The notes beneath the pieces were generated by a model. It made no database searches. It had not been told where the DNA came from and saw nothing but the letters and a program-made list of their open reading frames with translations. From Kordiimonas marina (lineage in GTDB: Bacteria; Pseudomonadota; Alphaproteobacteria; Sphingomonadales; Kordiimonadaceae): a stretch of 64,000 nucleotides of DNA. How positions within the stretch are numbered: position 1 is the first letter of the stretch; the number at the start of each line of letters is the position of its first letter. Location of the stretch: assembly GCF_023006325.1 (NCBI RefSeq), contig NZ_JAINDF010000002.1, forward strand, positions 1-64,000. Reading direction: 5' to 3'. A program made the position numbers and the translations under genes. Shown here piece after piece: positions 11,407 through 32,021 of the stretch.

Positions 11407-11458
11407 GGAAAAATGGCGCACCCGAGAGGATTCGAACCTCTGGCCTCTGCCTTCGGAG
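11407..11458. repeat. Left attachment site of the island (truncated tRNA-Arg copy)
   Basis: This 52-bp segment is identical to 31612-31663. It corresponds to the tRNA-Arg(CCG) gene from the anticodon loop to the CCA end plus a short A/T tract, on the minus strand. The sequence diverges immediately after it, so it is not a functional tRNA. It marks the outer boundary left by site-specific integration. Confidence 0.95.
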
Positions 11459-11649: not shown

Positions 11650-12861
11650 ATGCTTTCAAGGTTGAATCGCAAAGTTGTCGATCAGCTAGCGCCTGCGGCG
11701 AAACCCTACGAGGTGCGTGACACCCAGGTTAAGGGGTTGATCGTGCGTGTCCAACCCAGCGGCACTAAAAGCTATTACTGCGAATTTCGCAGAGGCCGCC
11801 GGATTAGCTTGGGTAAGGCATGTCATCTGTCGGTGGAGGAAGCGCGGACAGCAGCGATCACGGCTATTTCCGAGGCTAGAAACGGAGAAGACCCGGCTGC
11901 CGCGCGAAAGCGGCGCAAGGCGGTGTCTTCCTTCAAGGAATATCTGGACGCGCACTATGGTCCGTGGCTGATCGAAAACACTTCCTCGGGGGAGGCGACG
12001 ATCAAGCGGCTGAAAACGACGTTCGCATTTCTCCTAGCCCACAAGCTCGACGACATCCTGCTCTCCGACCTGGAAAAGTGGCGCACCAAGCGTTTGGCTG
12101 GCGGGGTCAAGCATACGACGGTCAATCGAGATATTTCCGCAGTCAAGGCCGCTTTGAATCGTGCTGTGGAATGGAAACTAATTGAAACTAACCCGCTTCA
12201 GGCGCTGAAGAAGTCGCGTGAGGACAAGATCGGCCGGGTCAGGTTCCTGAATGAGCAGGAACGAAAGCGGCTGTTTGAAGCCCTGGAGGCCAGAGAAGAA
12301 CGGATGAGATCTGAGCGCGACACGGCCAACCATTGGCGCCGGGAGCGAGGCTATGACCTGCTGCCGGACCTGAGACAAGTGACGTTTGCAGACCATTTGA
12401 AGCCCATGATCCTGCTGTCCTTGAACACGGGCCTGCGCCGCGGGGAGCTTTTCTCGCTCCGGCGGACAGATATTGACCTAAAAAACAAGCTGCTGACCGT
12501 CAGGGGCACCAACGCGAAATCTAAGCGGACCCGCCATGTCCCGCTCAACGCGGTTGCCTTGGCCGTTATGACGGATTGGCGGAAGCAATCTGCCGCTGGT
12601 GCGGAGTTAATTTTCGTGGGCAAGGGCGGTGGCATGTTCGATAACGTCAGTTCCAGTTGGGAACGACTGTTGGATGAGGCCGATATCATGGCCTTTCGCT
12701 GGCACGATATGCGCCATGACTTCGCCTCGCAGTTGGCGATGGCCGGGGTAGACCTCAATACGATCAGGGAGTTGTTGGGGCACAGCGACTACAGCATGAC
12801 ACTCAGGTATGCCCACTTGGCCCCCAACAAAATGGCGGATGCGGTAGCTAGAATTGGATGA
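11650..12861 (+). CDS. Tyrosine recombinase / site-specific integrase
   Basis: A 403-residue phage-type integrase that would insert and excise the island at tRNA-Arg. The N-terminal DUF4102/arm-binding-like region (about 1-95) is followed by a SAM-like core-binding domain (about 95-195). The catalytic domain has R263 (TGLRRGE), a lysine near 292, H352-x-x-R355 (HDMRH), H378 (LLGHSD) and the nucleophile Y387 (LRYAHL). All catalytic residues are present, so it should be active. It lies next to the truncated attachment copy rather than beside the intact tRNA, which is the less common arrangement. Confidence 0.95.
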   Translation: MLSRLNRKVVDQLAPAAKPYEVRDTQVKGLIVRVQPSGTKSYYCEFRRGRRISLGKACHLSVEEARTAAITAISEARNGEDPAAARKRRKAVSSFKEYLDAHYGPWLIENTSSGEATIKRLKTTFAFLLAHKLDDILLSDLEKWRTKRLAGGVKHTTVNRDISAVKAALNRAVEWKLIETNPLQALKKSREDKIGRVRFLNEQERKRLFEALEAREERMRSERDTANHWRRERGYDLLPDLRQVTFADHLKPMILLSLNTGLRRGELFSLRRTDIDLKNKLLTVRGTNAKSKRTRHVPLNAVALAVMTDWRKQSAAGAELIFVGKGGGMFDNVSSSWERLLDEADIMAFRWHDMRHDFASQLAMAGVDLNTIRELLGHSDYSMTLRYAHLAPNKMADAVARIG

Positions 12862-13020
12862 ATGCCAATCCTAAAAGCCGTTGAGCCTAAAATTTCTTCC
12901 CATGCCGGCTGCTAGATCATGGTTGGGCTTGCGGAATGTATTCAAAGCAACCTATCGTAGAGATTATGCAAACTTGAACGTAATTTTAGCCAGTAAAATG
13001 GTCGTTCTATGGGGAGGCTT

Positions 13021-15003
13021 ATGGGAAATCAGCAGGTTGTGCCCGCAGGGCTAGAATTAGACCGCTTAACCGAGCGATTGAAAGATCGCTACAGGAAACC
13101 GGTTAGGAAAAGTAGTACTCATCTGGGCGTCACTATCGATGGCGAAGATATTGCGTTCTCGGCGCCTGGCCAAGAACAGTATAAAAGTGGAATTTGTGCG
13201 TTTGTTCGCCGCAAGCCGCCCCAAGAATTTGCAGTTCAACTGAAACCAAAAGTTCTTCATTCAAAAGCTCGCTTCAACATCACGTCCGAACTGGCTCCAA
13301 ACCTTGTAGGGGCTGGCGAGGCTTGGGTGGTTAAGATCGGGACGGTTGCCGAATTAGATCGTTTTCTGGAATGGTTTGATCAGTTTGGGCATATCGGTGA
13401 AAAAGTTCTTCCTGATAGGGAGGTACAAGAGTTAGGGACAGAGCACCCGCTGAACCAAATCCTATATGGGCCTCCAGGTACTGGGAAAACGTTTAATCTC
13501 GCCCGTATAGCGGTTGAAATTTGCGATGGCAAAGCGCCAGAGGACCGCACGGAGTTGATGACGCGGTATCGAGAGTTGGTTAGCCAGAAGCGCATCGATT
13601 TTGTTACCTTTCATCAATCCTACTCCTATGAAGAATTTGTTCAGGGTTTACGACCCCATGCAGGCGACGAAGGGGAATCGAATAATTCGGGGGGCTTTTC
13701 TCTAAAGCCTGAAGATGGGATTTTCAAACGGATCGCTGATCGCGCAAAAACCGCTGGTGCGACTCTGGGCAAAATTGACACCCCCAAACTAACCAATCAA
13801 CGCATTTTCAAGATGTCGCTTGGTCAGGCCAATGATCCAGCAGATGCATATCTTTTTGAAGAATGTATGGAGAATGGGTACATCCTGCTTGGTTATGGTG
13901 GAGATGTGGACTGGTCTCAGGTTAAGCCGAAAAGCTTTTCCGACATCAAAGAATATTGGCGAGAGAAATTTAACCCTGAAGTGTCAGGAAACGATCCGAA
14001 TATTGTCTGTATAAACCACCTATTCTTGACAATGAAGGTGGGCGATTTTGTTGTTGTCTCGAAGGGCAATATGGCCTTTCGCGCTATCGGGGTGGTTGCA
14101 GGGGACTACGAATATGTAGCGCGAGAAGAGGATGGGTTTCATCATCGGCGCAAGGTTGACTGGATTTGGGTGCATGACGAGGGACTGCCCGTCGAAGAAA
14201 TTTATGACACGCGTTTCACCCAATATACGTTGGTAGAGATGAAGCGCGAAAAGCTGAATCAGGCCGCCTTTGAGCGGCTGGTGACCCCACACAGGGTTCT
14301 TGAGCAAGAAAATAAGGATAATTTTGTCCTGATTATGGATGAAATTAACCGTGCCAATATCTCCAAGGTCTTTGGTGAGCTAATTACATTGATTGAGGAC
14401 GACAAGAGGCTTGGTACGCTCAACGCATTAACTGCAAACCTGCCCTATTCTAAAATCCCGTTTGGGGTCCCCAAAAATTTGTATCTTCTGGGAACAATGA
14501 ATACAGCGGACCGCTCGATTGCACTTCTCGATACTGCACTGCGCAGACGGTTCAATTTCAGAGAGTTCATGCCTAACCCCGCGCTGCTCTCGAACAATAT
14601 CGATGGTGTCGATTTGCAGGGAGTGTTGACGACGCTCAATGCTCGCCTTGAGTATATGCTAGGCCGCGACTACCAGATTGGGCACGCATATTTTATGGAC
14701 TGCAAGACATTGGATGAGGTCTCAGATGTCATGCGTGGCAAAGTGCTACCTCTACTACAGGAATATTTTTATGATGACTGGTCTAAAATCTTTGCCGTGC
14801 TGGGAGAAGAGGGAGATGGCGGCACTTTCATGAGACGTTCAAAACTGAAATCTCCATTCGGCAATGAGGATGCCGCCCAAGACCGGTATGAAATGATAGT
14901 GGATGGCTCAGTACCGCCGGAGAAATTTCAAAAGCTATTTGACCTCATCTCGAATGAAATGAGTCCGGAGGTCCAGGATGTGGTGGTAAGTGCGGCTGAA
15001 TAG
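13021..15003 (+). CDS. mcrB: McrB-like AAA+ restriction NTPase with inserted EVE-like domain
   Basis: About 660 residues. An unrecognised N-terminal domain (1-130) precedes an AAA+ module of the McrB/MoxR type: Walker A GPPGTGKT beginning at G150, Walker B LIMDEINRAN with D440, and sensor/arginine region NTADRSIALLDTALRRRF. Between Walker A and Walker B there is an extra segment of about 170 residues with DFVVVSKGNMAFRAIGVVAG and a following W-x-W, resembling an EVE/PUA-like modified-base reader. McrB translocates on modified DNA with McrC as nuclease. The start at 13021 follows GGGGAGG; an ATG at 13009 is the alternative. The next gene starts 2 bases after the stop. Confidence 0.85.
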   Translation: MGNQQVVPAGLELDRLTERLKDRYRKPVRKSSTHLGVTIDGEDIAFSAPGQEQYKSGICAFVRRKPPQEFAVQLKPKVLHSKARFNITSELAPNLVGAGEAWVVKIGTVAELDRFLEWFDQFGHIGEKVLPDREVQELGTEHPLNQILYGPPGTGKTFNLARIAVEICDGKAPEDRTELMTRYRELVSQKRIDFVTFHQSYSYEEFVQGLRPHAGDEGESNNSGGFSLKPEDGIFKRIADRAKTAGATLGKIDTPKLTNQRIFKMSLGQANDPADAYLFEECMENGYILLGYGGDVDWSQVKPKSFSDIKEYWREKFNPEVSGNDPNIVCINHLFLTMKVGDFVVVSKGNMAFRAIGVVAGDYEYVAREEDGFHHRRKVDWIWVHDEGLPVEEIYDTRFTQYTLVEMKREKLNQAAFERLVTPHRVLEQENKDNFVLIMDEINRANISKVFGELITLIEDDKRLGTLNALTANLPYSKIPFGVPKNLYLLGTMNTADRSIALLDTALRRRFNFREFMPNPALLSNNIDGVDLQGVLTTLNARLEYMLGRDYQIGHAYFMDCKTLDEVSDVMRGKVLPLLQEYFYDDWSKIFAVLGEEGDGGTFMRRSKLKSPFGNEDAAQDRYEMIVDGSVPPEKFQKLFDLISNEMSPEVQDVVVSAAE

Positions 15004-15005
15004 CA

Positions 15006-16283
15006 ATGAGGCACTATTCTATACAAGAGTGGGACAAGATTGCCATAAGCGACCGGTCTTCAGGGCATAGCCTGTCGAGAGCCGACTCAGAGGTCTTGGA
15101 AAGACTAGTTGAAGAGATAGCCCCTCAAGCCGGTTTGCAAGGTCGCAATATCCTTCAATGTGGCTATTCGCATTTGACCGCCCAACAGGTCGTAGGTGTT
15201 GTTCAAACATCAGAATTTGCGCTCGAAATACTACCCAAAATTGGTGGCCAGGATGCAAGAGATTTGCGCAAAAACCTGGTGCATATGCTGATAGTTACGA
15301 CAGGCCTCGATGTGGCCGAGGGGCCCGGTACTACGTTATCGGCCCAAAACACGGACTTACTAGAGTGTGTTATCGGCTTTTTACTTCGAGAGATGGCTGC
15401 GCTTGTGCGTCAGGGTCTTGCCACGGGTTATATTGGGTACTCCGATGACCTAGCCATGCTCCGCGGCAGTTTGAATGTTTCAAGGCAATTCACAAAGTTT
15501 GCTGTTAATCCCAGCCGGGTATCTTGCCAGTTTGATGAGCTTAGCAAGGACATACCAATCAATCAGTTCTTGAAACTTGCTCTTGTGAAGCTGAAGAGGT
15601 TGGCCTGTTCATTCGAAAATAAGAAGCTGCTGGTTCAATTGGAGCATGCCTTTGCCGATGTGTCTTTAGTGGACAGACGAGCCATCCGGCCAGGTTCAAT
15701 TGAACTCGATCGCCGCTTTCTCCATTATTCAAATGCCCTGAAATTGGCACAGCTTGTTTTGGACTCCTGTTATCAGACGACATCGTTTGGCAATTATGCC
15801 GGAATGTCGCTGCTCTTTGAGATGAATACGTTGTTTGAGGCGTATGTCGCGAAATTGGCCCACAGTGTCGCGGCGACTATTGGCCGCCGGGCAAAGACCC
15901 AGAGTCCGCACAGGTACCTGGCTAGGGATGCTCAGGGCCTACCCGCCTTCAAGATGATACCTGATATAACTGTCTGGGAGGGTGAGCGGTGCGACATGGT
16001 CATCGATACCAAATGGAAGGTTATACAGACCTCGTCTTTTTCCGGTTCGATCGCTTCAAACATTGCCTCTTCAGATGTCTATCAAATGCTGGCCTACAGT
16101 GAAGGTTATCAGCCTCGGCGGCTTGTGTTGCTGTATCCTCATGATGAAAAGTTGGAGGGTGCGCCAGGGCTGCGGACCTCATTCAACCTTCCTGGTGGCG
16201 GCGCCGCACTTGAAATATGGACGCTGGACGTAAACCAGCTCAACCTAGTCCCTCAGCAACTTAGACGCCTCATAGAGAACTAA
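15006..16283 (+). CDS. mcrC: McrC-like restriction endonuclease subunit
   Basis: A 425-residue McrC-family protein, the nuclease partner of McrB. The N-terminal region contains the McrC-type segment FALEILPKIGG, and the C-terminal domain has a PD-(D/E)xK nuclease motif: P319-D320 and D334-T-K336 (VIDTKWK). It lies two bases downstream of mcrB, forming a typical modification-dependent restriction pair that cleaves DNA carrying methylated or hydroxymethylated bases. The gene is less GC-rich than the flanking chromosome, consistent with acquisition. Confidence 0.88.
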   Translation: MRHYSIQEWDKIAISDRSSGHSLSRADSEVLERLVEEIAPQAGLQGRNILQCGYSHLTAQQVVGVVQTSEFALEILPKIGGQDARDLRKNLVHMLIVTTGLDVAEGPGTTLSAQNTDLLECVIGFLLREMAALVRQGLATGYIGYSDDLAMLRGSLNVSRQFTKFAVNPSRVSCQFDELSKDIPINQFLKLALVKLKRLACSFENKKLLVQLEHAFADVSLVDRRAIRPGSIELDRRFLHYSNALKLAQLVLDSCYQTTSFGNYAGMSLLFEMNTLFEAYVAKLAHSVAATIGRRAKTQSPHRYLARDAQGLPAFKMIPDITVWEGERCDMVIDTKWKVIQTSSFSGSIASNIASSDVYQMLAYSEGYQPRRLVLLYPHDEKLEGAPGLRTSFNLPGGGAALEIWTLDVNQLNLVPQQLRRLIEN

Positions 16284-19152: not shown

Positions 19153-20495
19153 TGGGTGCGGAGGTGTGTGAATTGCCGCCAGGATGGGAGCCCGTGCCTC
19201 TCGGCATGTTGCTTGATGACATAGTCGGTGGGGGTACTCCTTCCAAGAGCGTTCCCGAGTATTTTCAAGGCTCCATCCCTCTCATGACGGTCAAAGACAT
19301 GAAAGTGTCTCGTCCGTCTCAAACAGGTTTTAATATTACCGAGGCCGCTCTTGCCGATAGCAGTGCTAAAGTTGTTCCAGCGGACACCATCATAATTGCG
19401 ACTAGAATGGGGCTTGGGAAAGTGGTCCGGCCGAAGATGGCTACTGCCATTAACCAGGACTTGAAGGCACTTTTCCCTAAAGAGGCACTAGATAAGTCGT
19501 TCTTGGAGCAATGGCTGCTCTCGGCGGCATCCAAAATAGAGGCGATGGGTACTGGCACAACAGTCAAAGGTATCCGCCTAAATCAAATTCGCGAGCTCGA
19601 ATTCGTCTTACCCCCAATCAACGAACAGCGGCGCATTGTTGACAAGATCGAAACCCTGTTTGCCGACCTGGACAAGGGCGAGGAAACGCTCCGGGCCGTG
19701 CAGAAGCAGCTTGTGCGCTATCGCCAATCGGTGCTGAAGGCCGCCGTCACCGGCGAGCTCACCGCCGACTGGCGGGCGGAAAATGGTGCTGCCGAATGGC
19801 GGAAGATTACCTTAGGTGAACTGGCGGAATTCCTGACCTCCGGCTCTCGCGGATGGGCCAAGTACTATTCGCAACGCGGTGATATCTTTGTGAGAGCGCA
19901 GAACATTAAATATGACCGGCTTGATTTATCTGACATCGCCTATGTGTCACTACCACAAAAGTCTGAGGGCACCAGAACTAGGCTGAAAGTGGGTGATCTT
20001 CTGATCACGATCACCGGCGCCAATGTAACAAAATCTGCTTTGGTCGAAAAGGACATTGGGACGGCTTATGTTAGCCAGCATGTCGCGCTTTTCCGTTGCA
20101 CGGACCAGGTTGACCCTGAATTCCTATATTGGTTTGTGGTCGCTGATTACGGCGGCAGGAAGCAGCTCGAAGACTATGCCTACGGGGCCGGCAAGCCCGG
20201 TTTGAATCTTCAAAACATTAAGGACGTGAAGCTTGATTTGCCGCCGCTACCTGAGCAACGAGAAATTGTACAACGTATCAAAAGGCTTCTAACAAGTCAG
20301 GAGTCTTTAGCGGCAGAGCTAGTGCGCCAAGAACGAGCAGCAAACGCCTTGCGCCAGTCGATCCTGAAGGACGCCTTCGCTGGCAAACTGGTGCCACAGG
20401 ACCCGGCGGACGAGCCGGCCTCGGCGCTGCTGGCGCGCATTAAAGCATCTGCGCCCAAGGCGGTAAAACGTAGCGTTAGAAAGGCCAGTACATGA
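19152..20495 (+). CDS. hsdS: Type I restriction-modification specificity subunit S
   Basis: A 447-residue HsdS that determines the bipartite target sequence for both methylation and cleavage. Two target-recognition domains (about 1-155 and 205-370) are each followed by a conserved helical spacer: INEQRRIVDKIETLFADLD near 158 and LPEQREIVQRIKRL near 374. The spacers are GC-rich and the recognition domains distinctly more AT-rich, as expected from domain swapping. A GTG codon immediately upstream (19149) could also serve as the start. The stop overlaps the next gene by 4 bases. Confidence 0.93.
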   Translation: MGAEVCELPPGWEPVPLGMLLDDIVGGGTPSKSVPEYFQGSIPLMTVKDMKVSRPSQTGFNITEAALADSSAKVVPADTIIIATRMGLGKVVRPKMATAINQDLKALFPKEALDKSFLEQWLLSAASKIEAMGTGTTVKGIRLNQIRELEFVLPPINEQRRIVDKIETLFADLDKGEETLRAVQKQLVRYRQSVLKAAVTGELTADWRAENGAAEWRKITLGELAEFLTSGSRGWAKYYSQRGDIFVRAQNIKYDRLDLSDIAYVSLPQKSEGTRTRLKVGDLLITITGANVTKSALVEKDIGTAYVSQHVALFRCTDQVDPEFLYWFVVADYGGRKQLEDYAYGAGKPGLNLQNIKDVKLDLPPLPEQREIVQRIKRLLTSQESLAAELVRQERAANALRQSILKDAFAGKLVPQDPADEPASALLARIKASAPKAVKRSVRKAST

Positions 20496-21340
20496 GTGCA
20501 AACTATCCCTCGATAGGTAGTGGAGCAATTGTTACCACGTGCTGTATTCTGGACGAAATTCGTACCAATGCGGAACTTGAAACCATATTACTTGAATATG
20601 GCTTGTCAGATGAAGTGAGGGACCAGGGGTCTATCGCTAAAACGCTTTTGGCTTTAAAGAAATTTGCGGTTGCCAATCCTGATTTTGAGGTCGCTACGGA
20701 CTTGGGTCGGCTCCCGGTGTCGCATCTACTTGTTCAGTTAGCAGTTGAGAAGATCGGCTGGACCCAGAGGACGGCCGCCCTATGGGAAAAGCTGGAACGC
20801 TATCTGGCGCTTGATGGCTACAGCCTTCAGAAAGAAGTTACGGAAAACTGGGGCAGCCAAGACATAAAAGTAACTGGTTTGACAGTAGCAATGCCGTCCT
20901 TCGTCGAACTCCCAGAAACGGCCAGTGAGGTTGATCTGCTGCTGGAGCGATTTGGGCTTCAGGTTGCCAGGCGGCATCTCAGTAGTGCTAGGGACAATAT
21001 TGCCCAAGGTGACTTTGAGGCAGCGAATAGCCAATGCCGAACCTTCCTGGAGGCGTTGACGGATGCAATAGCCGACGGGCTATATCCGGAAGATGCTCAG
21101 TCGAGGTCAGGTGGGCTTCAAAAGCGACAGCTCTTGTCTGAAAAGGGCTTCCTGTCACGAGACAAACATGAATTTGGCGACGGCAATGGTCAGACTTTTT
21201 TGCCTGGGCTTGCCAAGCTACTGCATATCGATGGCGCTCATCCCGGAATATCAAATTTGCCTGACGCCACTTTCCGGCTGCAAGTGGTGGTGATTACAGC
21301 GCGGTGGCTGCTTAAACGCCTGGAAGACCTGGCGAACTGA
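20492..21340 (+). CDS. Abortive-infection C-terminal-domain-like protein embedded in the type I R-M operon
   Basis: A 282-residue protein of uncertain function. The C-terminal region (about 165-280) has helices with CRTFLEALTDAI, then GDGNGQTFLPGLAKLL and a final amphipathic helix, resembling the Abi_C domain of abortive-infection proteins. The N-terminal 160 residues are unrecognised. Its ATG overlaps the hsdS stop by 4 bases and hsdM begins 9 bases after its stop, so it is translated as part of the R-M operon and is probably a linked second-line defence or a regulator of the complex. The family assignment is by eye only. Confidence 0.55.
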   Translation: MSANYPSIGSGAIVTTCCILDEIRTNAELETILLEYGLSDEVRDQGSIAKTLLALKKFAVANPDFEVATDLGRLPVSHLLVQLAVEKIGWTQRTAALWEKLERYLALDGYSLQKEVTENWGSQDIKVTGLTVAMPSFVELPETASEVDLLLERFGLQVARRHLSSARDNIAQGDFEAANSQCRTFLEALTDAIADGLYPEDAQSRSGGLQKRQLLSEKGFLSRDKHEFGDGNGQTFLPGLAKLLHIDGAHPGISNLPDATFRLQVVVITARWLLKRLEDLAN

Positions 21341-22813: not shown

Positions 22814-25432
22814 TCAAACTGTGCCGCCCTCCCGAAAGCTGTATGTTTCCGAATTTTTCATGAGGTCAATCAAGGTCTTCTCTGCGTCTCCCACTTTCAC
22901 ATCACAGGCCTTATGCAACAAGCGCAGAGCGTGAGCATATTCGTTTCGAATATTCGTCGCGAATATGCCTGGGTCGTCACTGGCCAGAATGATGGTTGGT
23001 CTTGGCTCATCTTTGAAAGTGGGATCAAGGCCGAGCCAGCGCCGTAAATGGTGCTCACCATATCCTCTGTAAAAGGAAATGCTTACGTTGCTGGATAACA
23101 TGGTTTCGATGACGACCTTGCGTCGACATACCTCTTGCAATACCACCTGCTGCATCTTGACGAGCGCTGCCGCCGGGAAGAAGTCACTCTGAATCAGCGT
23201 TTTCTCCCCGCTGGTTTTTACGCAGCGCGGCGTTTCATAAAACCGGCGGACCTGATAGGCGATAGGCGCATCTTTTTTCGCGTCGATGTGCAACGCTCGT
23301 TCGTGGGCGCTCATCGAACCTAGCTGTGGGCCTTTGTCATCAAAATAGCGAGGATCAAGATGGCGCAATTGCCAAGCCTGATGCAGTAACGGCGCAGCGC
23401 CAGCTAGGACTAAGCCCAAAAGTTCACTATCTGAAACCTTCAGGCCCACATAAATTTGTTGTACTAGTCGTGTTATTTCATCTTCTGCCTTTGCTACTAC
23501 ACCATGGAACTCAGGTTCCGCTCGTAGAACCGACCATGCGAACACCAGGTTATCCAGCCATTCACCTTTTTCCATGTGTATTGTCTGTGGCATGCGTTCG
23601 AGCCAAAGCTGGGGAGCGATTCCGATTGCTGTGGCGTGACCGAGTCGGTTTCCGGGCCGATAGTCGAGAAATTCGATCGCTTCCTTGACGGCTCTGATGC
23701 CTGATACAAGGTGGTTGAAGTCCTCTCCCACATGATACGTTGCGTAGGAAAGCCCGGCCTCTCGAGCGCATCTATATAGAGGTGCAAAGACCTCGGGCGG
23801 CGTATGCAGCTCGTTGCTGGCCGCATCTATGCTGTTGATGAAGTAGCGGGCGGCAGGAAATGTGCGTCTGGCGAAATCCAGATGACGCCATTGCTTGTCG
23901 AGATCATTTCGCAATCGCGCAAACCGGTGCTCCCGTTCCGGCATCTTCGTCCTAAGTTCATTTTTTTTTATGAAGTGCGCGGTCAAGCGCAATTGCAGGC
24001 CCTGTGTTTTTTGAGACAGTTCGATGGTGTCTTTTGGCAACGGCTCAGGCGTCTGCCCCATTGCGGCGCCACCATTTTCCAGGGCGAGCAGGTAGCTGCG
24101 ATAACCCTTGATGATCTTTGAGAGCAGAGAAATCAGTTTTTGCCGGTCAGCTTTAGGTGCAAAACGGCCTTCGAAGATTCTGACATCGGCATGGGCCTTT
24201 GGCCCGATTTGGTGGAACCGGGCTTCATAACCATTTTCGACACTGTTTCGCGCGCCGCTGACGGTGAATTTTTGAAATTGATCAAAGCCTTTGTAGGCGA
24301 TTTTTTGTACGCAGATTGGCAGGAACGTACCGTTGAGAATTAGAAGATACAGGTGTAGGGCCCGCGCGACCTGGGGGCGCAGTGTGTGCCGTCTATCCCC
24401 TAATATATCGTACAGCCGTATATACATTGCCAACTCTGCCATGGTCGGGCTTGCCCCTGGCGGCTCCGCGCCAAATGTGCGGAGCGGATGGTAACGCCAT
24501 ACCGGTTGCTCCGTCCCTTGTGGCCAGCCTCCGGCGATGATGGTTTGCAGATTTGGCTGAGTGTTACCCTTGTTAGCGTGTAAAGCCTCTGGGCTTTTGG
24601 TATGTCCATATGCCCAGAAACACAGGGCATGCCGGAGCCTGCGTGCTATTCTGATCCGCTCCAGCAGGAGCTCTGGGGTCAGGGTGACGTCAATCTGCAA
24701 AAGTAACTCACGCGCGATTTGTACCTCATTCAGTTTTAGCGCGTCGGGATCAGGCCCCGAGGTGAACTGCTGCTTCAGGTCAGCCGAGAACTCACCATAG
24801 CGGTCGAGGGCATGAAGCCAAACCGCATCTGCTTCCGTGGTGCCATTCAGATGGACGTGTGGATCATTATACCCACGTTCCCTACCCAGTTTTTCTAGGA
24901 GCTGGCTGTGCGGTCCGATCAGTAGGCTATGCCGGAACGGTTCGAGATGTTGGCTATAGGCTTTTCGCTCCGCGTAACTATCTCGATACCGACCGTATCG
25001 GCGCCATAGGCCAAATGCGATAAAGGGAAGTGGTGATAATTCGGCTAGCTCACCCTGCCAAGCAGCAAAGTGCTTTCTCTTCACACACAGCCGTAAACCA
25101 TGCCATTCCAAATATCGGTCATGAAAGCGTTCGAACAGCGCAAAGAGATGCTCCGCCAGTGGGCCCTCTGCGGACGAGCCAGCGTTGCCGTTTCCTAGCC
25201 CAGCATCGGGCCCGCCTTGGTTGCCTACACCGCAGCCCAACAGTGCGTCTTGATATTTTCGATGAAGATGATCCGGCCAATCGGGACGTCGTCGCCATTC
25301 GGCTAAATAGACCTGCTGTTTGGCATCTGCCCATGATGGTAAAATACCGGTACTGCCCCCAGATAGGTAGGCGTTTAGAAGGGCCTGACTATTCAGTATT
25401 GGGTGCAGGGGGTAGAGGGGATCTGACAACAT
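22814..25432 (-). CDS. rdrB: RADAR system adenosine-deaminase-family protein RdrB
   Basis: An 872-residue protein with divergent metal-dependent adenosine deaminase motifs spread over the C-terminal two thirds: metal-binding H192-V-H194 (DPHVHLNGTTE), the catalytic HVGE with H567 and E570, GNRLGH with H599, and S818-D-D820-PG. In RADAR, RdrB forms a large shell and deaminates adenosine nucleotides to inosine (originally described as RNA editing) during phage infection. It starts 11 bases downstream of rdrA, so the two are one operon. The large size with an N-terminal extension and the ATPase partner distinguish it from a metabolic Add enzyme. All expected catalytic residues appear present. 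Confidence 0.87.
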   Translation of the reverse strand: MLSDPLYPLHPILNSQALLNAYLSGGSTGILPSWADAKQQVYLAEWRRRPDWPDHLHRKYQDALLGCGVGNQGGPDAGLGNGNAGSSAEGPLAEHLFALFERFHDRYLEWHGLRLCVKRKHFAAWQGELAELSPLPFIAFGLWRRYGRYRDSYAERKAYSQHLEPFRHSLLIGPHSQLLEKLGRERGYNDPHVHLNGTTEADAVWLHALDRYGEFSADLKQQFTSGPDPDALKLNEVQIARELLLQIDVTLTPELLLERIRIARRLRHALCFWAYGHTKSPEALHANKGNTQPNLQTIIAGGWPQGTEQPVWRYHPLRTFGAEPPGASPTMAELAMYIRLYDILGDRRHTLRPQVARALHLYLLILNGTFLPICVQKIAYKGFDQFQKFTVSGARNSVENGYEARFHQIGPKAHADVRIFEGRFAPKADRQKLISLLSKIIKGYRSYLLALENGGAAMGQTPEPLPKDTIELSQKTQGLQLRLTAHFIKKNELRTKMPEREHRFARLRNDLDKQWRHLDFARRTFPAARYFINSIDAASNELHTPPEVFAPLYRCAREAGLSYATYHVGEDFNHLVSGIRAVKEAIEFLDYRPGNRLGHATAIGIAPQLWLERMPQTIHMEKGEWLDNLVFAWSVLRAEPEFHGVVAKAEDEITRLVQQIYVGLKVSDSELLGLVLAGAAPLLHQAWQLRHLDPRYFDDKGPQLGSMSAHERALHIDAKKDAPIAYQVRRFYETPRCVKTSGEKTLIQSDFFPAAALVKMQQVVLQEVCRRKVVIETMLSSNVSISFYRGYGEHHLRRWLGLDPTFKDEPRPTIILASDDPGIFATNIRNEYAHALRLLHKACDVKVGDAEKTLIDLMKNSETYSFREGGTV

Positions 25433-25443
25433 GGTATGACCTG

Positions 25444-28359
25444 TCAGCTATCTGTGGCCGTCTCGGAATCAGTCTGAATTTCCACCTCGTGCTTCCGTTT
25501 CTGCTCATCTTTGGCCACAACCTCCTCCTCCTGGTTGGCTTGTTTGTTTGACGAGTTTGTCTTAGCTGAAGGCATAGTTTTTCCCTGGATAGTGACGGCA
25601 TTTAGGAGGTCGACGAGAGAGATACCTTGACCTAATTGATCCACTTGAGAGGCGTCTTTACCCACGCTGGCAGCCTCGCTGTCAGCCCCGAGCAACTTAA
25701 ACTGCCACTGGCCTGGATCATAATTCGGCGCGATGCTTTTACTCTTATACAGCTTCTCGGCCTCTGCATCGAATTTCAGGAAAGGCCACCACAGAGGACA
25801 GCCTAGCACTAGCTGGGTGAGTGGTAAGTTTGAGTGATCCAAACCTTTTCCTCGGCGGGGGGCAGTGAAAATTCTCAAGTTTTGAGTAAATTGTTGATCG
25901 GTTTGGATGGGGTTTCGTCGGATCACATTGGGCCATGCTTCTGTGTCATTGGCGAGCATTTCCTCGGTAAGTATGGCATGCAAGAATGCAACGATCTGTC
26001 GATGCATTAGATTGCCAAGAAAATAGTGGCTGTTTGGAATCCTCTCCACAATGTTTCGGGAGGTTGCGACATACCGGGTCCAAATCCTGCCCCATAGCAA
26101 GGGGCTCACAGATAACTCTATTGCATCAACGCTATTTCGCCATTTGGACAACTGTTTGACTAGAGACTCAAAGATTGTGATTCCGTTGCCAAATTCTTGG
26201 GCCTTTGAATTCAGCTCGGACTCGTCGCCATCATCATTGTTGTCATCGTTCTGAGCGCGGCTATCCAATGCGATTGATGCAGAACTACGATCATCCTTTA
26301 CCTGAAAGCCTGCGATAGCAGGTCTTTCAGTGTGCTCATCTAACAGTCTTGCGATGTCTGAAGTATGGGCAGAGTGGGACAATAGCTCCGCCATAAGGCC
26401 AATAAGGCGTAATGGCGATGCGACATACGCACTTTCACCATTGTTCATCATGAATTCCATGATCGGCAATTTCGCCAGTGGGCCCAGTCGATCATAAAGA
26501 TTGCTAGGGGTCAGACAGAGAGGCCAGTTTGATTCGTAACCTTGTCGGAAATCGAGATAGTTTTTCATCATTTTTTGGGCCGACAAGTTAAGCAAAGCGT
26601 CAGAGCCGAGTTTCTTATAGTTGCTCGTTATGACGGTGCTTGGCGCTCGCTTACCGTATAGCAATTGAACTGACTCGTTTACGGTACCTTTGCTTTTATC
26701 TCTGTAGAGTGGGATGGCGAGGTGACTGGGGCGGAATCGGTTAGGCGTGCTTACGTCGCGCCCCATGACGTGGAAAATGCTGACAAGCCGTTCGGCGACA
26801 TGGCTGGCACTGTTTAATCCAGTGGCTCCGAAAAAATCTACACTAGCCTTGAAATCGTCCCCGATGTGGACCTCTTGAATGGTGGCAAGGGAGGCAATGC
26901 GTAACATGACGCCCAGGCCTCGGTCCCGCGCTTTTTCACCGGAAAGATAAAGCGCTGAGATAAACACGAGCTGCGCTGTCCGGATATCATCATCGTCTCC
27001 CGTGCTGGCCATAAATGGGCCATCCGGGAAATGGTCTGCTCGTGCCACAATTATACTAGCAAACTGACGGGCCACCGACGAGGGATCGTCAAGCGAGAGG
27101 CTTGCGCGGTCGACACCAATGCGGTTGAGGGGGCCCACAAAAATACTTGTCAGGCTTTGAGCCACGAAGGCACGCAAACCGTTTGGCTCACTGTCCGCAT
27201 ACCCATGCAGAAGCTGTAGAAAAGCGCGCAACGGCTGTTCCGCTACTACCCTACGCAACAATTGAAGCTCCCGTCCCTTTCGGATACCTGTCAAGCTAGC
27301 CAGCATGTCGTCTACTAACGCAGGCAACGGTTCAGGTTGGGCCGAGGTGCTTATTTTAACTTTCACCGACCGATCTTTCCCGCGGTCGTCCAGCAACGCA
27401 GCTACGGATTTAAGATCAATACGATTTTCCGGCTTAAGGATTTTTTGCAAGTATTGGTCTTCCAGATGGTTGACCATGGCCAGCACATTGACCTGACCGT
27501 CATGTTTAAGCTGCTTTTGGCTAAAATTAGTCCACTGTCTGCTGCGAACAGCCATTGTGTAAAGGCGGAGATCACCCGAAAGAATTGGCACAAGAAAAGG
27601 AGTGGCGACATAACGGCGTAGGGTTTCCAGGACAGGCCAGCCACGTGCAAAATCCGTGTCGACATCGTCGATGGACAGTACGAAGATGGTCTTTCCTAGC
27701 AGCTCAAGACTTTTTTGCAGAAATTGGTTGAAGCTCTTTTCCAGGTCGATGCTGTTGGAAGCGTTTGCAAGCCCAGTTTCCATGATGAAAACGTCATCGT
27801 CCCATTCCGTGCCATAGAGGGCCGGGCTGCCTACGCCATCAAGCAGCTTTAGGCCCCTGGCGAGGCTCCGCTGATACTTTTTCCAGTCCTCGTAGCGGGC
27901 GTCGTCCCGGGCTTCACCCTTGATAAAGCCATCTACGCGCTTACAAACTTGGCTGACGATTACAATCAGGAAGTTTTCTCGACTGCTAATTAAGGTGGGA
28001 TCAATTGGGTCTAGAATGGCCAGTCCATTCAAACCTTTATCTTTTCCTATCCCTAGCCCTGCGTCGATGCGAAGGGCTTCTAGAACATTTAGGGTGAAGG
28101 TGGTTTTGCCCGAACCGCGCGGGCCGCTTATGAGGATGGCATTATGTTGCCGGTCGTCAATGAGTGACTTGTTCCCAGCTTTTTGATTTGCATCTACTGC
28201 TGTTTTAATCCGTTCAGTCAGCAGCTCTTCTAGCGCCGCTCGAGCTTCCCATTGGATGAACTCTGCATCATCCAGTCGCCGCACCTCCTGAGGTTCTTTG
28301 AGGTCTATCACGATCTCTTTTTTTGAAACGTTTTCTTGAGAGGCGCTAATAGTTGGCAT
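25444..28359 (-). CDS. rdrA: RADAR system AAA+ ATPase RdrA
   Basis: A 971-residue ATPase. Walker A GPRGSGKTT is at 79-87 and Walker B FVLSIDDVD at 227-235, followed by a conserved ETLRRY arginine region. The remaining 650 residues are helical and have no other recognised enzymatic motif. The last 40 residues are highly charged. Length, position immediately upstream of an 872-residue deaminase, and shared orientation match RdrA, which assembles into rings that dock on RdrB and activate or feed it during infection. The operon is less GC-rich than the chromosome. A controller-type XRE gene lies 269 bases upstream on the same strand. Confidence 0.85.
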   Translation of the reverse strand: MPTISASQENVSKKEIVIDLKEPQEVRRLDDAEFIQWEARAALEELLTERIKTAVDANQKAGNKSLIDDRQHNAILISGPRGSGKTTFTLNVLEALRIDAGLGIGKDKGLNGLAILDPIDPTLISSRENFLIVIVSQVCKRVDGFIKGEARDDARYEDWKKYQRSLARGLKLLDGVGSPALYGTEWDDDVFIMETGLANASNSIDLEKSFNQFLQKSLELLGKTIFVLSIDDVDTDFARGWPVLETLRRYVATPFLVPILSGDLRLYTMAVRSRQWTNFSQKQLKHDGQVNVLAMVNHLEDQYLQKILKPENRIDLKSVAALLDDRGKDRSVKVKISTSAQPEPLPALVDDMLASLTGIRKGRELQLLRRVVAEQPLRAFLQLLHGYADSEPNGLRAFVAQSLTSIFVGPLNRIGVDRASLSLDDPSSVARQFASIIVARADHFPDGPFMASTGDDDDIRTAQLVFISALYLSGEKARDRGLGVMLRIASLATIQEVHIGDDFKASVDFFGATGLNSASHVAERLVSIFHVMGRDVSTPNRFRPSHLAIPLYRDKSKGTVNESVQLLYGKRAPSTVITSNYKKLGSDALLNLSAQKMMKNYLDFRQGYESNWPLCLTPSNLYDRLGPLAKLPIMEFMMNNGESAYVASPLRLIGLMAELLSHSAHTSDIARLLDEHTERPAIAGFQVKDDRSSASIALDSRAQNDDNNDDGDESELNSKAQEFGNGITIFESLVKQLSKWRNSVDAIELSVSPLLWGRIWTRYVATSRNIVERIPNSHYFLGNLMHRQIVAFLHAILTEEMLANDTEAWPNVIRRNPIQTDQQFTQNLRIFTAPRRGKGLDHSNLPLTQLVLGCPLWWPFLKFDAEAEKLYKSKSIAPNYDPGQWQFKLLGADSEAASVGKDASQVDQLGQGISLVDLLNAVTIQGKTMPSAKTNSSNKQANQEEEVVAKDEQKRKHEVEIQTDSETATDS

Positions 28360-28527
28360 TGCTCGATTCCGTTCATAAACTCGATGAAGTGATTATCTTT
28401 ACTCTGCAATTCACAACTGGCGGTTTCAATCGAAAAGTGTTGTTTGAAGAAGTTGTTGGAGGTGGGGCGCTCTTAAAGCCAGCTAGGAATGAGTTTAGCC
28501 ATCGCTTATGGCAAACGAGTCCCTTCG

Positions 28528-28558
28528 CCTGTACAGGACGGGTACATACATTAATGTA
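28528..28558. promoter_or_regulatory. Two short palindromes upstream of rdrA, candidate operators
   Basis: CCTGTACAGG (28528-28537) and TACATTAATGTA (28547-28558) are perfect palindromes in the space between the XRE gene and rdrA, about 170-200 bases upstream of the rdrA start. The space (28360-28628) contains no credible gene. They do not match the C-box upstream of the XRE gene, so any regulator is unknown. Confidence 0.35.
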
Positions 28559-28628
28559 AATAACGCGCTTCTTAGATCCACAATAATTGATCAGCAGCTC
28601 GACCAATTATTTATCGAAGGCGACAATT

Positions 28629-28871
28629 TCAGTAGCGAATTCCAGAATATTTTGAGTTTTGTTTCGTACTGGCGACTAGGATTGCTACATCTACTACCAA
28701 AGCAGATGCTATTTCCTGGATGACGGTAATCGTGGGGTTTCTGATGCCGCGCTCCACGCCTGAAATGTATGTACGGTGCAGGCCAGACCTAAATGCCAGC
28801 TCCTCCTGCGAAAGCCCTTGCTCCCGCCGAATCCTTGCTACATTCATACCCACTTGCCGACGAATATCCAT
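28629..28871 (-). CDS. XRE-family controller (C) protein of restriction-modification type
   Basis: An 80-residue single-domain helix-turn-helix protein. RIRREQGLSQEELAFRSGLH and RTYISGVERGIRNPTITV (about residues 14-52) closely follow the pattern of R-M controller proteins such as the C.AhdI/C.Esp1396I type, which activate their own gene and the linked restriction gene and later repress themselves. A tandem C-box lies 23 bases upstream of the start. There is no obvious ribosome site, as is often the case for C genes, which can be leaderless. It is upstream of and co-oriented with rdrAB, whereas the type I R-M operon is distant and opposite, so rdrAB is the likely target. Confidence 0.82.
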   Translation of the reverse strand: MDIRRQVGMNVARIRREQGLSQEELAFRSGLHRTYISGVERGIRNPTITVIQEIASALVVDVAILVASTKQNSKYSGIRY

Positions 28872-28893
28872 GAGCCAAATATTTCTGGATGTT

Positions 28894-28919
28894 GACTATC
28901 GGTCTACAGACTATGAGTC
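28894..28919 (-). promoter_or_regulatory. Tandem C-box operator of the controller gene
   Basis: On the minus strand this reads GACTCATAGTC, spacer TGTA, GACCGATAGTC. Both boxes end in ATAGTC and the first is a GACT-N3-AGTC element. Two 11-bp boxes separated by 4 bases is the operator layout of known C-protein promoters (for example PvuII and Esp1396I). It sits 23 bases before the XRE start, as expected for an autoregulated C gene. Confidence 0.8.
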
Positions 28920-29000
28920 ACATTTCGATTGAAAGGCCGGAACCTGCAAGTTAACCTGGGACCTAATATTCTGGCTTTAAACAGCAGCGGAGGCATAACT

Positions 29001-29468
29001 ATGTTCGGCAAAAAGAAAGATGCGGCACCGATCAAATCGCTCGCGCGGGTCGGGCCGATAGTACCGAGTGTGCCGGTCTTTTTTGGATCAGCGCCAGAGG
29101 GCTATGTGTTGATCGAACAGAAGGGTGTGGTTATCACCAACGTGACAGCGTCTGATCCTTTCAGCGGATCGTTCGCGGCTCTTATGCGCGAGGAACAGGG
29201 CAACATGGTTCGGGCGCTGAGCAGCCAGACCAAGGAGCTCGGCTGCAATGCGGTTCTGAATTGCCAGCTTGAGTATGGTACCTACCAGAGGCAGGGGTCG
29301 AGTTGGAACGGCATTCTGGCCACTATGTATGGCAATGCCTGTGTGCTTGAGCGGAGGCTAGTTAGGGCCGCGGTAGGGCCGTTCTGGGACTGCCCCAAGG
29401 GTATTTTTGCCGGCGGTCATTGGTTCGGCAATTGGGTCATGACTTCTCTTTTCTTCATACACACCTGA
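29001..29468 (+). CDS. YbjQ-like (heavy-metal-binding-domain-like) small protein
   Basis: A 155-residue protein. The central part (about 50-115: VVITNVTASDPFSGSF, then LSSQTKELGCNAVLNCQLEY) resembles the YbjQ/UPF0145 fold, in which an ELGANAVV-type segment is conserved. The role of that family is unsettled. The C-terminal 40 residues are unrelated and end in a hydrophobic segment. The ATG at 29001 has CGGAGG eight bases upstream and is preferred to an upstream TTG. It is divergent from the controller gene, whose C-box lies 82 bases upstream of this start. Confidence 0.5.
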   Translation: MFGKKKDAAPIKSLARVGPIVPSVPVFFGSAPEGYVLIEQKGVVITNVTASDPFSGSFAALMREEQGNMVRALSSQTKELGCNAVLNCQLEYGTYQRQGSSWNGILATMYGNACVLERRLVRAAVGPFWDCPKGIFAGGHWFGNWVMTSLFFIHT

Positions 29469-29619
29469 ACGCAGGTGCCCTTTTCTAAAATACTCTTTTA
29501 AAATCAATATCTTAAGTTTGAATACTGGAAAAATACGAAGTATACGCTTTTGAAAACATTGAGTTTTCACCCAATGGATCAATCACTTAGCCATTTACTT
29601 ATGATTTGAGAAATGAGTC

Positions 29620-29645
29620 GAGGGGCAGCGCGGACGCTACCCCTC
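29620..29645 (-). terminator. Hairpin just after the ribbon-helix-helix gene
   Basis: GAGGGG/CCCCTC arms with inner AGCG/CGCT pairing and a four-base loop, 6 bases past the stop of the gene at 29652-30038. The T-run expected of an intrinsic terminator is weak, so terminator function is only likely. Confidence 0.4.
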
Positions 29646-29651
29646 CTGGAG

Positions 29652-30038
29652 CTATATTTTGATGGCGATCACCTCGAAGAGCTGATCGATCTGACGATGG
29701 AGAATCTTCGCATCATCAAGTCGAAGCTTTCTCAGATCATCCAAAGCCGTGTCACGTGCTTTGACCAGGAGCTCGCTAAACTCCCCTTCGTCCAACCGGT
29801 CTTTCAGCAGCTTTTCGGCGGTGGCGACTTGAACTCGAAATGCCGTCGCTACCATGATTGTGAGTGCCCGAAAGGGGCTATATTCAATCTTGCTTTGTAG
29901 CTCATTCTCGGCAGCACGGACCACCATACTGCGTCCAAACTGAGCGGGGCTCACACCCGCTTGGTCGGAGGCCTTCAGCACCTTATATTTTTGGTCTTCC
30001 GTGAGCCGGACGGTCAGCGTTTCGTGGTACCTACTCAT
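29652..30038 (-). CDS. Ribbon-helix-helix protein, possibly mobilisation-related
   Basis: A 128-residue protein whose first 50 residues (ETLTVRLTEDQKYKVLKAS, then GVSPAQFGRSMVVRAAENEL) fit a CopG/MobC-like ribbon-helix-helix DNA-binding domain. The rest is helical and unrecognised. Its ATG overlaps the stop of the upstream ribbon-helix-helix gene by 4 bases. Paired proteins of this type act as relaxosome accessories or as autoregulators on mobile elements, but no relaxase gene is present here. Confidence 0.55.
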   Translation of the reverse strand: MSRYHETLTVRLTEDQKYKVLKASDQAGVSPAQFGRSMVVRAAENELQSKIEYSPFRALTIMVATAFRVQVATAEKLLKDRLDEGEFSELLVKARDTALDDLRKLRLDDAKILHRQIDQLFEVIAIKI

Positions 30039-30322
30039 TCGAGACTCTCCCGAATCCTAACTCCTAGCAGAAAGTCCTTTCCGAAAATTTCCGAAAGTGC
30101 CATTTCTAGGAACTTTCGTAGATCTCGCGCAGAAGAGAGGATTTGTTGAAGTGCCTGCTGATGGTCATAATCCTCCCCATGCGACATCTTCTGAAGCACG
30201 ATTTGCGTCAGCAACGTTCGGGCAATCACACTTTTGGACAGACCTTTTCCGTCCGCGAGGACGGCCAACCAATCATCAACTTGCGGAGTGACGCGGATAG
30301 AAAGAGTGACAAGTTTTGACAT
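30035..30322 (-). CDS. Ribbon-helix-helix domain protein
   Basis: A 95-residue protein beginning SKLVTLSIRVTPQVDDWLA, a typical beta-strand plus helix ribbon-helix-helix start, followed by GLSKSVIARTLL. The ATG at 30322 has AAGGAGG just upstream on the minus strand; the longer open frame to 30391 has no such signal and overlaps the AlpA-like gene. It lies 11 bases after the AlpA-like gene and overlaps the next gene by 4 bases, so the three form an operon. Confidence 0.6.
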   Translation of the reverse strand: MSKLVTLSIRVTPQVDDWLAVLADGKGLSKSVIARTLLTQIVLQKMSHGEDYDHQQALQQILSSARDLRKFLEMALSEIFGKDFLLGVRIRESLE

Positions 30323-30333
30323 GTTGCCCTCCT

Positions 30334-30525
30334 TCATACGTGCCGCGCGGGGGCGTTGGAAAGCCAGTTGTGGATCTCTTTCCGATGCCATCGAACGACG
30401 CCGCCTGAGAACCGAAGTGGTCTTGGCAAGCGCCCGGTGCGCTCCCAGCGATAGACGGTTGAGGTACTGACACCGAACAGGTTCGCAACCTCTCGGGCGG
30501 ATATATATTCAGCTTTATCAGACAT
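30334..30525 (-). CDS. AlpA-family / excisionase-like helix-turn-helix protein
   Basis: A 63-residue MerR-like helix-turn-helix protein: YISAREVANLFGVSTSTVYR and WERTGRLPRPLRFSGGVVRW match AlpA/excisionase-type proteins that bend DNA or activate integrase genes on islands. It is preceded by AGGAAAA. It lies near the right end, at the opposite end from the integrase, and could act as the recombination directionality factor or as the regulator of the ribbon-helix-helix genes behind it. Confidence 0.75.
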   Translation of the reverse strand: MSDKAEYISAREVANLFGVSTSTVYRWERTGRLPRPLRFSGGVVRWHRKEIHNWLSNAPARHV

Positions 30526-30619
30526 ACAATTTTCCTATGGGGTCGAAAGCGGACCCGATGCGCTGCCAGCGCGAATCACTAGCAAGCATTGTATGTCATG
30601 GTGGAGAACGGGGAGGGTG

Positions 30620-30645
30620 CACCTGCATGCAGTTGCATGCAGGTG
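30620..30645. promoter_or_regulatory. Perfect 12-bp inverted repeat upstream of the AlpA-like gene
   Basis: CACCTGCATGCA and TGCATGCAGGTG are separated by two bases. The repeat sits 95 bases upstream of the AlpA-like start and 8 bases past the stop of the membrane protein gene. There is no T-run on the minus strand after it, so an operator or recombination-factor site is more likely than a terminator. Confidence 0.5.
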
Positions 30646-30652
30646 TCGATTT

Positions 30653-31279
30653 TTATTTTCGTGGCTGAACTTTGCGGCTCGCGTCAAAGAAGGCGCCAGC
30701 TCCTTCTCGGATGCTGCGGCATACTCGATCACCCAATTCGCCCGCGTGCGGGGTGTCCAACCGACTTTTTTCGAGAGCTTCAAGAGCGTAACGGTCCAGA
30801 CTATCCAACCTATCGGCATGTACGCGCCTGTATATCTTTAGGAAGACGTTCCGGACATGAATGAAGTTATCTTCAGGCCAGTCTTTCTCCATATCGTCCA
30901 GGAAGTCGTCAATATAGTGTTGGGGAATGGCGAAGTACCAGCCAAGCTTGGGTTTTGAAATCGCCAGTATCTTCTGATCAAGCAGTGGTGTCCACGGAAC
31001 CGGCTTGTCTGTCTTGGCAACACGGGTGAGGTGTAGGCCGTAGTAGTAGGCGAAGCACAGAGCGGCCAATATCCACGTAAATGCAGGCAGCGACATTGGT
31101 GGATGCCGCATGTCCTGCCCTACAGGGATTCCCTCTTGTATGAATGACCGACCCACGTCCGCAAAAAGCAGAGCAACCAACATCCAAAACAGCGTACTTA
31201 CGACACCAAAGCCGAACCCCAACTTGGTATCCAAGGCAACGGTGGGTTCGTATAGGAATTTCTTTGCAAAGCTTGCCAT
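30653..31279 (-). CDS. Membrane protein with two predicted helices, unknown function
   Basis: A 208-residue protein. Two hydrophobic segments (about 22-44 and 62-82) are followed by a 125-residue soluble, charged, mostly helical domain with no motif I recognise. A strong GAGGAGG ribosome site precedes the ATG. It is the outermost gene at the tRNA end of the island. The layout (two helices plus a cytosolic domain) is common among defence effectors, but nothing in the sequence shows that role here. Confidence 0.55.
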   Translation of the reverse strand: MASFAKKFLYEPTVALDTKLGFGFGVVSTLFWMLVALLFADVGRSFIQEGIPVGQDMRHPPMSLPAFTWILAALCFAYYYGLHLTRVAKTDKPVPWTPLLDQKILAISKPKLGWYFAIPQHYIDDFLDDMEKDWPEDNFIHVRNVFLKIYRRVHADRLDSLDRYALEALEKSRLDTPHAGELGDRVCRSIREGAGAFFDASRKVQPRK

Positions 31280-31611
31280 ATATCCTCCTCTCAGATGAAC
31301 AAGTTCAACAACGAGATTGTCAGGCTGTGCCGCGCCAGCGAGTTCGCGAGGTTATTGCCCTGTTAGCTCAAGAAATCTGGCCTTGGCACATCCAGCGAGA
31401 ACAATAATAGTACAAAACAGGAATATAGACAAAAAATAGAACAAAAAAGGTGCATATATAGAACATTTTCAGAGTGTCAGACTCTATTCATGATGCACAA
31501 TCAGTGATTTGGGGGAGCGTGTGGTGCGGGAATGCACTTACTATGCACTTATCTGACGCTGCAACCGACGAGGGCTTGGGCTTTCAGTGATGTAAGTGTA
31601 TGGTTTTTCTT

Positions 31612-31618
<7 letters not shown>
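31280..31618. other. Right terminal non-coding region of the island
   Basis: No gene is seen. The left part is ordinary sequence. Bases 31400-31480 are A-rich with several AGAACA-type repeats. TGCACTTAC and TGCACTTAT at 31533-31552 repeat the motifs found beside the integrase, and the right attachment repeat begins at 31612. Confidence 0.6.
31533..31552 (+). repeat. Paired TGCACTTA repeats, candidate integrase arm sites (right)
   Basis: Two nine-base copies (31533-31541 and 31544-31552), two bases apart, in the same orientation as the pair beside the integrase and about 60 bases inside the right attachment repeat. Confidence 0.5.
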
Positions 31619-31695
<77 letters not shown>

Positions 31696-32021
31696 ATGGC
31701 CGGTAAAGTTCGCCGCGGACACTACACGCGAGCCTGCCATGATGCAAGAGCCTTCAACAGGCCCCCAGGCTGATTCTCTGTTCCCCGGATGCGGGGCAAT
31801 AGGACAGCGACACTGTCCCAAGAAGGCGAAGGCTATGGAAGGATGGAAATTTCCATTATATTTCAATTTGTTACAGGTAAATTTCATCGTTCATTAAAAT
31901 TTTATCCAATTGATTACCCGGGGTTAACGCCCTCTCTTTATATATCGGACCCGCGCACGATACTCGTAGGCCTTGCAAATTTTCGGGGCCTATCGGGTTA
32001 ATAAAAATTCCAAGACGATGG
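31696..32021. other. Intergenic region between tRNA-Arg and the TonB-C genes
   Basis: No gene is seen. The stretch contains a GGACAG/CTGTCC inverted repeat (31802-31818) and a perfect palindrome ATGGAAATTTCCAT (31843-31856) in an AT-rich stretch upstream of the first TonB-C gene. Either could be a regulator site, but no regulator can be named. Confidence 0.4.

Follow-up and report, generated by a model that had tools for sequence, protein, structure and literature searches.

A controller (C) protein gene with its own operator pair lies ahead of the RADAR genes in an integrated island of Kordiimonas marina

Controller (C) proteins are timers of type II restriction enzymes, and their genes are best known from type II restriction-modification (R-M) systems. 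In the parts of the cited sources on which we draw, the operators of C.PvuII-like proteins consist of GACT-tat-AGTC boxes with GT at the center of the spacer (PMC4824078), and the base contacts of C.Esp1396I are made by R35, T36, and R46 (PMC4041747). In C-controlled R-M systems, the stop codon of the C gene and the start of the next gene are reported to lie within ±20 nt of each other (PMC2997769). In Csp231I, the endonuclease gene behind the C gene is served both by promoters of its own and by a bicistronic C-R transcript (PMC4824078). Incompatibility between C proteins has been described (PMC3874152), and overexpression of RdrB, one of the two RADAR proteins, leads to ITP accumulation and toxicity without infection (PMC9994260). 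Our search of a library of open-access papers found none that joins RADAR, phage defense, and a controller protein.

We analyzed a stretch of 64,000 nucleotides (the window) in which a small gene with an ATG start, at 28629–28871 on the minus strand, encodes an 80-residue protein. The preliminary description had assigned this XRE protein the sequence pattern of a C protein, and the database matches bear this out: Pfam finds an HTH_3 domain (2e-16), PADLOC labels it Control_protein (9.6e-18), and the closest solved structures are C.BclI (2.2e-13), 3clc (2.9e-11; C.Esp1396I, a name that we took from the PDB codes in PMC4041747), and C.AhdI. If a 3-residue tag offset is assumed, R33, T34, and R44 of the controller align with the three base-contacting residues of C.Esp1396I, and S52 of that protein, which contacts the backbone, is replaced by V50. 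Judged by these matches, 28629–28871 encodes a true controller of the C.PvuII/Esp1396I type.

The operator lies directly upstream. Reading along the minus strand, the distal C-box (left operator) GACTCATAGTC at 28919–28909 is followed by the TGTA spacer (28905–28908), the proximal C-box (right operator) GACCGATAGTC at 28904–28894, and then 22 bp to the ATG of the controller gene. The distal box was identified by pattern match, and its position is shared with relatives. The proximal box departs by one base from GACT-n3-AGTC, so that the whole pair agrees at 15 of 16 box bases; apart from that base, the operator fits the definition of a GACT-n3-AGTC pair with a GT-centered spacer. Single boxes occur in the window at the level expected by chance (31 matches with at most two mismatches vs 35 expected). 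When the genome of 3,684,098 bases was scanned for the spaced pair GACYNATAGTC-N4-GACYNATAGTC with up to three mismatches, the one site found was the controller operator, which matches without a mismatch; a reversed control pattern of the pair gave two matches at the same tolerance. The two boxes split by TGTA, previously proposed as a C-promoter layout, are thus real, and the spaced pair is unique in the genome. Neither the box scan of the window nor the pair scan of the genome placed a C-box directly ahead of rdrA. Regulation of the type I R-M or McrBC genes by the controller was also considered and rejected, because the box pair occurs nowhere else in the genome; a lone box with one mismatch at 15896 falls within mcrC and is consistent with chance. 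From this layout we infer that dimers of the controller would bind the two boxes and autoregulate its promoter. The transcript is probably leaderless; a spacing of 22 bp between the boxes and the ATG would allow such a start.

The next genes on the same strand are those of RADAR. The ATPase gene rdrA (25444–28359, 971 aa; PADLOC RdrA, 2.2e-35; PDB 8fnt, 2.9e-53) is adjacent to and co-oriented with the adenosine deaminase gene rdrB (22814–25432, 872 aa; PADLOC RdrB, 5.1e-23; PDB 8fnw, 1.6e-88), and both products match solved RADAR proteins. The gene map confirms that the controller gene is co-oriented with rdrAB and opposite to the type I R-M operon, as first reported. The controller stop and the rdrA ATG are separated by 269 bp (28360–28628) with a GC content of 0.43. 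This gap exceeds the spacing of about 20 nt seen in C-controlled R-M systems, and in PvuII and ScaI units of the same genus the C gene and the next gene overlap by 4 bp. On the minus strand of the spacer we found no predicted terminator and no sigma-70-like site, the latter in a scan that misses the C promoter too; an Rfam search of the spacer matched no known RNA or riboswitch. The sole open reading frame in the gap, 77 codons with a TTG start, was not taken for a gene. Right after the controller stop lies a near-perfect dyad of 30 bp (28582–28611; AATAATTGGTC-n8-GATCAATTATT on the minus strand) that has no U-run. It is unique in its own genome at up to three mismatches, and its hairpin has a z score of -1.57, with 14 of 200 shuffles folding equally well; the dyad could be an operator or a hairpin. 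As the operator pair occurs nowhere else in the genome, the controller can affect RADAR only through transcription that reads through the 269-bp spacer.

All of these genes lie within an integrated island of about 20 kb (11407–31663), which is bounded by a 52-bp direct repeat (11407–11458 and 31612–31663) and contains a tyrosine integrase gene (11650–12861). The right-hand copy of the repeat overlaps the 3′ end of tRNA-Arg(ccg). In relatives, second partial copies of the tRNA end lie 33–35 kb away (for example G387:C6:1596891/1630190 and G392:C1:217883/252648), and because of these copies the tRNA looks like a hotspot for islands. A DNA search with the right-hand part of the island (28300–31700) against 20 relatives found the tRNA and no other island DNA, except in one genome (G394) with a 199-bp match of 72% at the C gene. 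A plasmid search with the whole island gave 36 records, all below 80% coverage of the query; those listed, 20 in number, match 0–1% of it, at the island ends. Neither the divergent YbjQ-like gene nor the NikA-like gene close by had a plasmid match. The controller gene has no type II endonuclease or methylase partner. Its neighbors are rdrAB and, convergent on the opposite strand, McrBC and the type I hsd operon; neither a type II endonuclease nor a type II methylase was detected among those island proteins that were scanned. The label “orphan” is thus safe for the gene in the window, but not for all its kin. Two further features of the island were seen in passing: residues 285–386 of the McrB-like protein (13009–15003) match PADLOC PDC-S02 and form an insert between AAA parts, and the type I hsd operon contains a 282-aa gene (20492–21340) without a Pfam or PADLOC match.

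We compared the locus with other RADAR loci drawn from genomes of the class, plasmids, viral contigs, and a pattern scan of 85k genomes; this last scan used two short peptide patterns, and its 36 loci are a sample. After removal of duplicates (L012, L018, L019, and L020, which equal L038, L037, L028, and L036), of a plasmid hit (H5), and of loci in which no RdrB was found (L033, L042, L043, L056, and L060), 38 other loci were counted, each with matches to both rdrA and rdrB and 35 of them with at least 1 kb of upstream sequence. None of the 38 has a C-like HTH reading frame upstream of rdrA, in a search that recovered 23 of 23 known C loci used as a positive control. Nor does any of them carry a C-box pair in the upstream sequence scanned, which was up to 3 kb long, the best scores being 14–16 of 22 as against the full match in the window. 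The survey of rdrA neighbors for small XRE genes with C-boxes that the preliminary description had proposed therefore came back empty. The C gene ahead of RADAR is a single case, from which a chance adjacency cannot be told from a working link. Among the loci themselves, one that was excluded for lack of RdrB (L033) has a C-like HTH gene about 5 kb from its rdrA-like gene, and in one that was counted (L059, 4602–7431) the top-scoring RdrB relative (38.6%) lies behind an rdrA reading frame of only 193 codons. We found no RdrA in phages; a single-protein scan of the viral collection for rdrA was empty, and an alignment-based scan gave three.

Relatives of the controller itself are widespread. 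Counting the genome of the window each time, we found them in 27 of 385 class genomes (E ≤ 1e-12), in 21 of 398 from the phylum (1e-13; partly the same genomes), and in 9 of 19 from the genus (1e-8). Among 71 C loci, with the window counted in, the box pair is placed 22–24 bp ahead of the ATG in 26; the starts were partly extrapolated, and the count omits R-M loci whose pair scored at another distance (for example L105, L139, and L197). At 57% identity or above the figure is 16 of 21 loci, and among random pieces of the same DNA it is 5 of 14,200. A stricter form of the operator pattern (at most one mismatch) was found in 4 of 367 genomes, always ahead of a C homologue. As a stand-alone marker the operator was rejected: its 18-base core occurs in seven contigs of the viral collection, and a C homologue follows in five of them, the exceptions being L199 and L201. 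In a tree of 45 C proteins, the controllers of PvuII, ScaI, and a Geobacillus R-M system group with one non-R-M row (91/89), and one that we label as DraIII-linked and two more that we label as methylase-linked fall in the weak set that includes the window protein; the 76 columns of the alignment are too few to settle the origin of the controller.

For the 26 loci with the operator we noted how the next called gene of 100 aa or longer is oriented: it points the same way as the C gene in 19 and is convergent to it in 6, and in 1 it is uncalled. On the strength of the 19 co-oriented cases, a C gene at the head of varied cargo appears to be common, with the qualifications that one type of element dominates these cases, that the genes were called mechanically, and that the record of one locus (L015) annotates no such gene. 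The downstream genes were scanned in part. In 12 of the 26 loci, one of the six called genes nearest downstream is a ParB_N-methylase homologue (Pfam was run on two); by Pfam the ParB_N proteins are DNA methylases, and their companions are often DUF5681 and terminase-like genes. Alphaproteobacterial elements (L092–L101 and L163–L172, with L202 added by eye) combine a C gene with ParB_N-N6/N4 methylase, DUF5681, and terminase-like genes, and some have a gene that resembles, on inspection by eye, one for a serine recombinase. It is to these ParB_N-methylase elements that the controller seems to belong.

The surroundings of the remaining relatives are diverse. Two on conjugative plasmids stand alone by annotation, and others head R-M units with DraIII, PvuII, and ScaI enzymes. 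Two relatives in integrase islands of the same genus have 67% (L136) and 56% (L123) identity to the controller and the same box layout. The former adjoins a HATPase + Methyltransf_35 pair with a type II-like methylase, and the latter a SIR2-like gene, a methylase, and a HATPase gene labeled REase_II by PADLOC (1.1e-23); both loci may be R-M-like units. On a viral-collection contig (L198, 8512–11572), an operator identical to that of the window (26 of 26 bp) serves a C gene that is convergent to a CBASS operon (patatin phospholipase, E2, and cyclase). Convergent C genes also lie beside a type I HsdR gene and beside a SIR2-like gene. Looser relatives of the controller have Gabija and DRT3 genes as neighbors. 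On a Ruegeria pomeroyi megaplasmid (L113, 6001–11064), a C homologue with just one intact C-box heads a series of co-oriented genes: a small one, one with a DUF4365 annotation, and those for GajA (4e-49) and a GajB-like helicase (4.4e-17). The series is a possible C-linked Gabija. In L102 (5215–9132), a C homologue that is the sister of the Ruegeria gene in the tree (100/100) is convergent to the Drt3b reverse transcriptase gene of DRT3 (7.2e-209).

We favor, with a probability of about 0.57, the interpretation that the gene is a self-regulating controller of mobile elements which arrived upstream of rdrAB, where its transcription may read through into RADAR, and that it is not a conserved timer. 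Dimers would bind both boxes of the controller's own promoter and give rise to a self-activating and later self-limiting transcript, probably leaderless. The controller would stem from a set carried by mobile elements and would have ended up before rdrAB in this island, where read-through across the 269-bp spacer would add to whatever promoter rdrA has. A real effect of the controller on rdrAB is possible on this sequence evidence, with the odds leaning somewhat against it. The preliminary description had gone further and proposed a timer. In this reading the C gene and rdrAB would form one operon, in which the C protein delays or caps RADAR after entry of the island and averts the toxicity of a nucleotide deaminase. 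The local arrangement agrees with this proposal: the sole genomic site of the operator pair precedes the C gene, the three genes are co-oriented, and no terminator is predicted between the C gene and rdrA. The toxicity of overexpressed RdrB (PMC9994260) and the co-oriented C homologue upstream of Gabija in Ruegeria favor it as well, although that homologue has a single good box. What found no support is a timer of RADAR as such, given the absence of C genes from 38 of 38 other loci, the 269-bp gap, the lack of a box before rdrA, and the relatives that are convergent to their neighbors. We regard this operon as unlikely, and a selected delay timer likewise; delay or tuning of RADAR through read-through is possible, and tuning is plausible because read-through could occur and RdrB is toxic when overexpressed.

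It comes close to an even bet that the controller serves only itself or the island, that a separate promoter within the AT-rich spacer drives rdrA, and that the C protein has no effect on RADAR. The large gap of low GC content and the lack of a box before rdrA fit this possibility, as do the C genes convergent to CBASS, DRT3, a type I HsdR gene, and a SIR2-like gene, the RADAR loci that do without C, and the precedent of the Csp231I endonuclease promoters (PMC4824078). However, Csp231I also has its bicistronic transcript, and the scan that misses the C promoter detected no sigma-70-like site on the minus strand of the spacer. The controller might instead act as an exclusion factor: if a C-dependent R-M system belonging to its operator group enters the cell, the endonuclease of that system would be switched on too early, so that the cell dies and rivals are blocked. 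C incompatibility (PMC3874152) is a precedent. Exclusion would explain why orientations are mixed, why the genes travel on mobile DNA, and why the operator is conserved, and the same genus has a PvuII system whose box pair shows the same TGTA-centered layout; we nevertheless consider this role distinctly unlikely, as the PvuII-system and window operators differ at several positions and exclusion gives no reason for a position beside RADAR. The mixed orientations of the relatives are explained at least as well by exclusion, or by a controller without effect on its neighbors, as by a timer. That the gene is a relic of a type II R-M system from which endonuclease and methylase have been lost is improbable: gene and operator are intact, the scanned island proteins include no type II endonuclease or methylase, and on plasmids and beside CBASS there are relatives with no R-M unit in evidence. 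What speaks for a relic is that type II systems are the best-known home of C genes and that same-genus genomes hold PvuII and ScaI units with C genes. In addition, the two closest same-genus relatives adjoin methylases, one of them beside the REase_II-labeled gene, and for this reason we raised our estimate for a relic and lowered that for the mobile-element controller.

The recurrence of such genes beside unrelated defenses is more interesting than the link to RADAR itself. One could imagine that C proteins, together with the C-box promoters of their genes, make up a mobile regulatory module that repeatedly docks beside RADAR, Gabija, the HATPase-methylase system, CBASS, and DRT3, and acts as a shared switch or excludes C-dependent R-M rivals, an idea that we consider rather doubtful. 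If it is true, delayed and self-limited control reaches toxic defenses other than R-M, or islands exclude competing R-M systems; if neither holds, the locus cautions against inferring operon logic from one adjacency.

With controllers of the C.PvuII, C.AhdI, and C.Esp1396I type, the window gene shares an 80-aa HTH_3 protein, the base-contact residues, and a pair of GACT-n3-AGTC-like boxes with a GT-centered spacer before the ATG. It differs from them in that no type II endonuclease or methylase is attached, a gap of 269 bp takes the place of an overlap, and the gene that follows is rdrA. The HTH protein QseC, from Mesorhizobium ICEs, regulates the adjacent qseM on these mobile elements and works with it in quorum sensing (PMC8627217). 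It resembles the controller in being a mobile HTH regulator, and a PDB chain named QseC matches the controller at 1.2e-7; in contrast, the relatives that we label QseC-like (beside an AHL synthase gene) and TraM-linked lack the GACT pair, and a box pair of another kind stands at 22–23 bp in two of the TraM-linked relatives. The RADAR genes have the usual arrangement, rdrA and then rdrB, both matching solved proteins, whereas the C gene upstream of them has no counterpart in the other loci (0 of 38). BrxR/CapW and CapR, dedicated regulators of BREX and CBASS, are WYL HTH repressors (PMC12255303); unlike the controller described here they are not C proteins, and they provide a precedent for regulators of defenses other than R-M.
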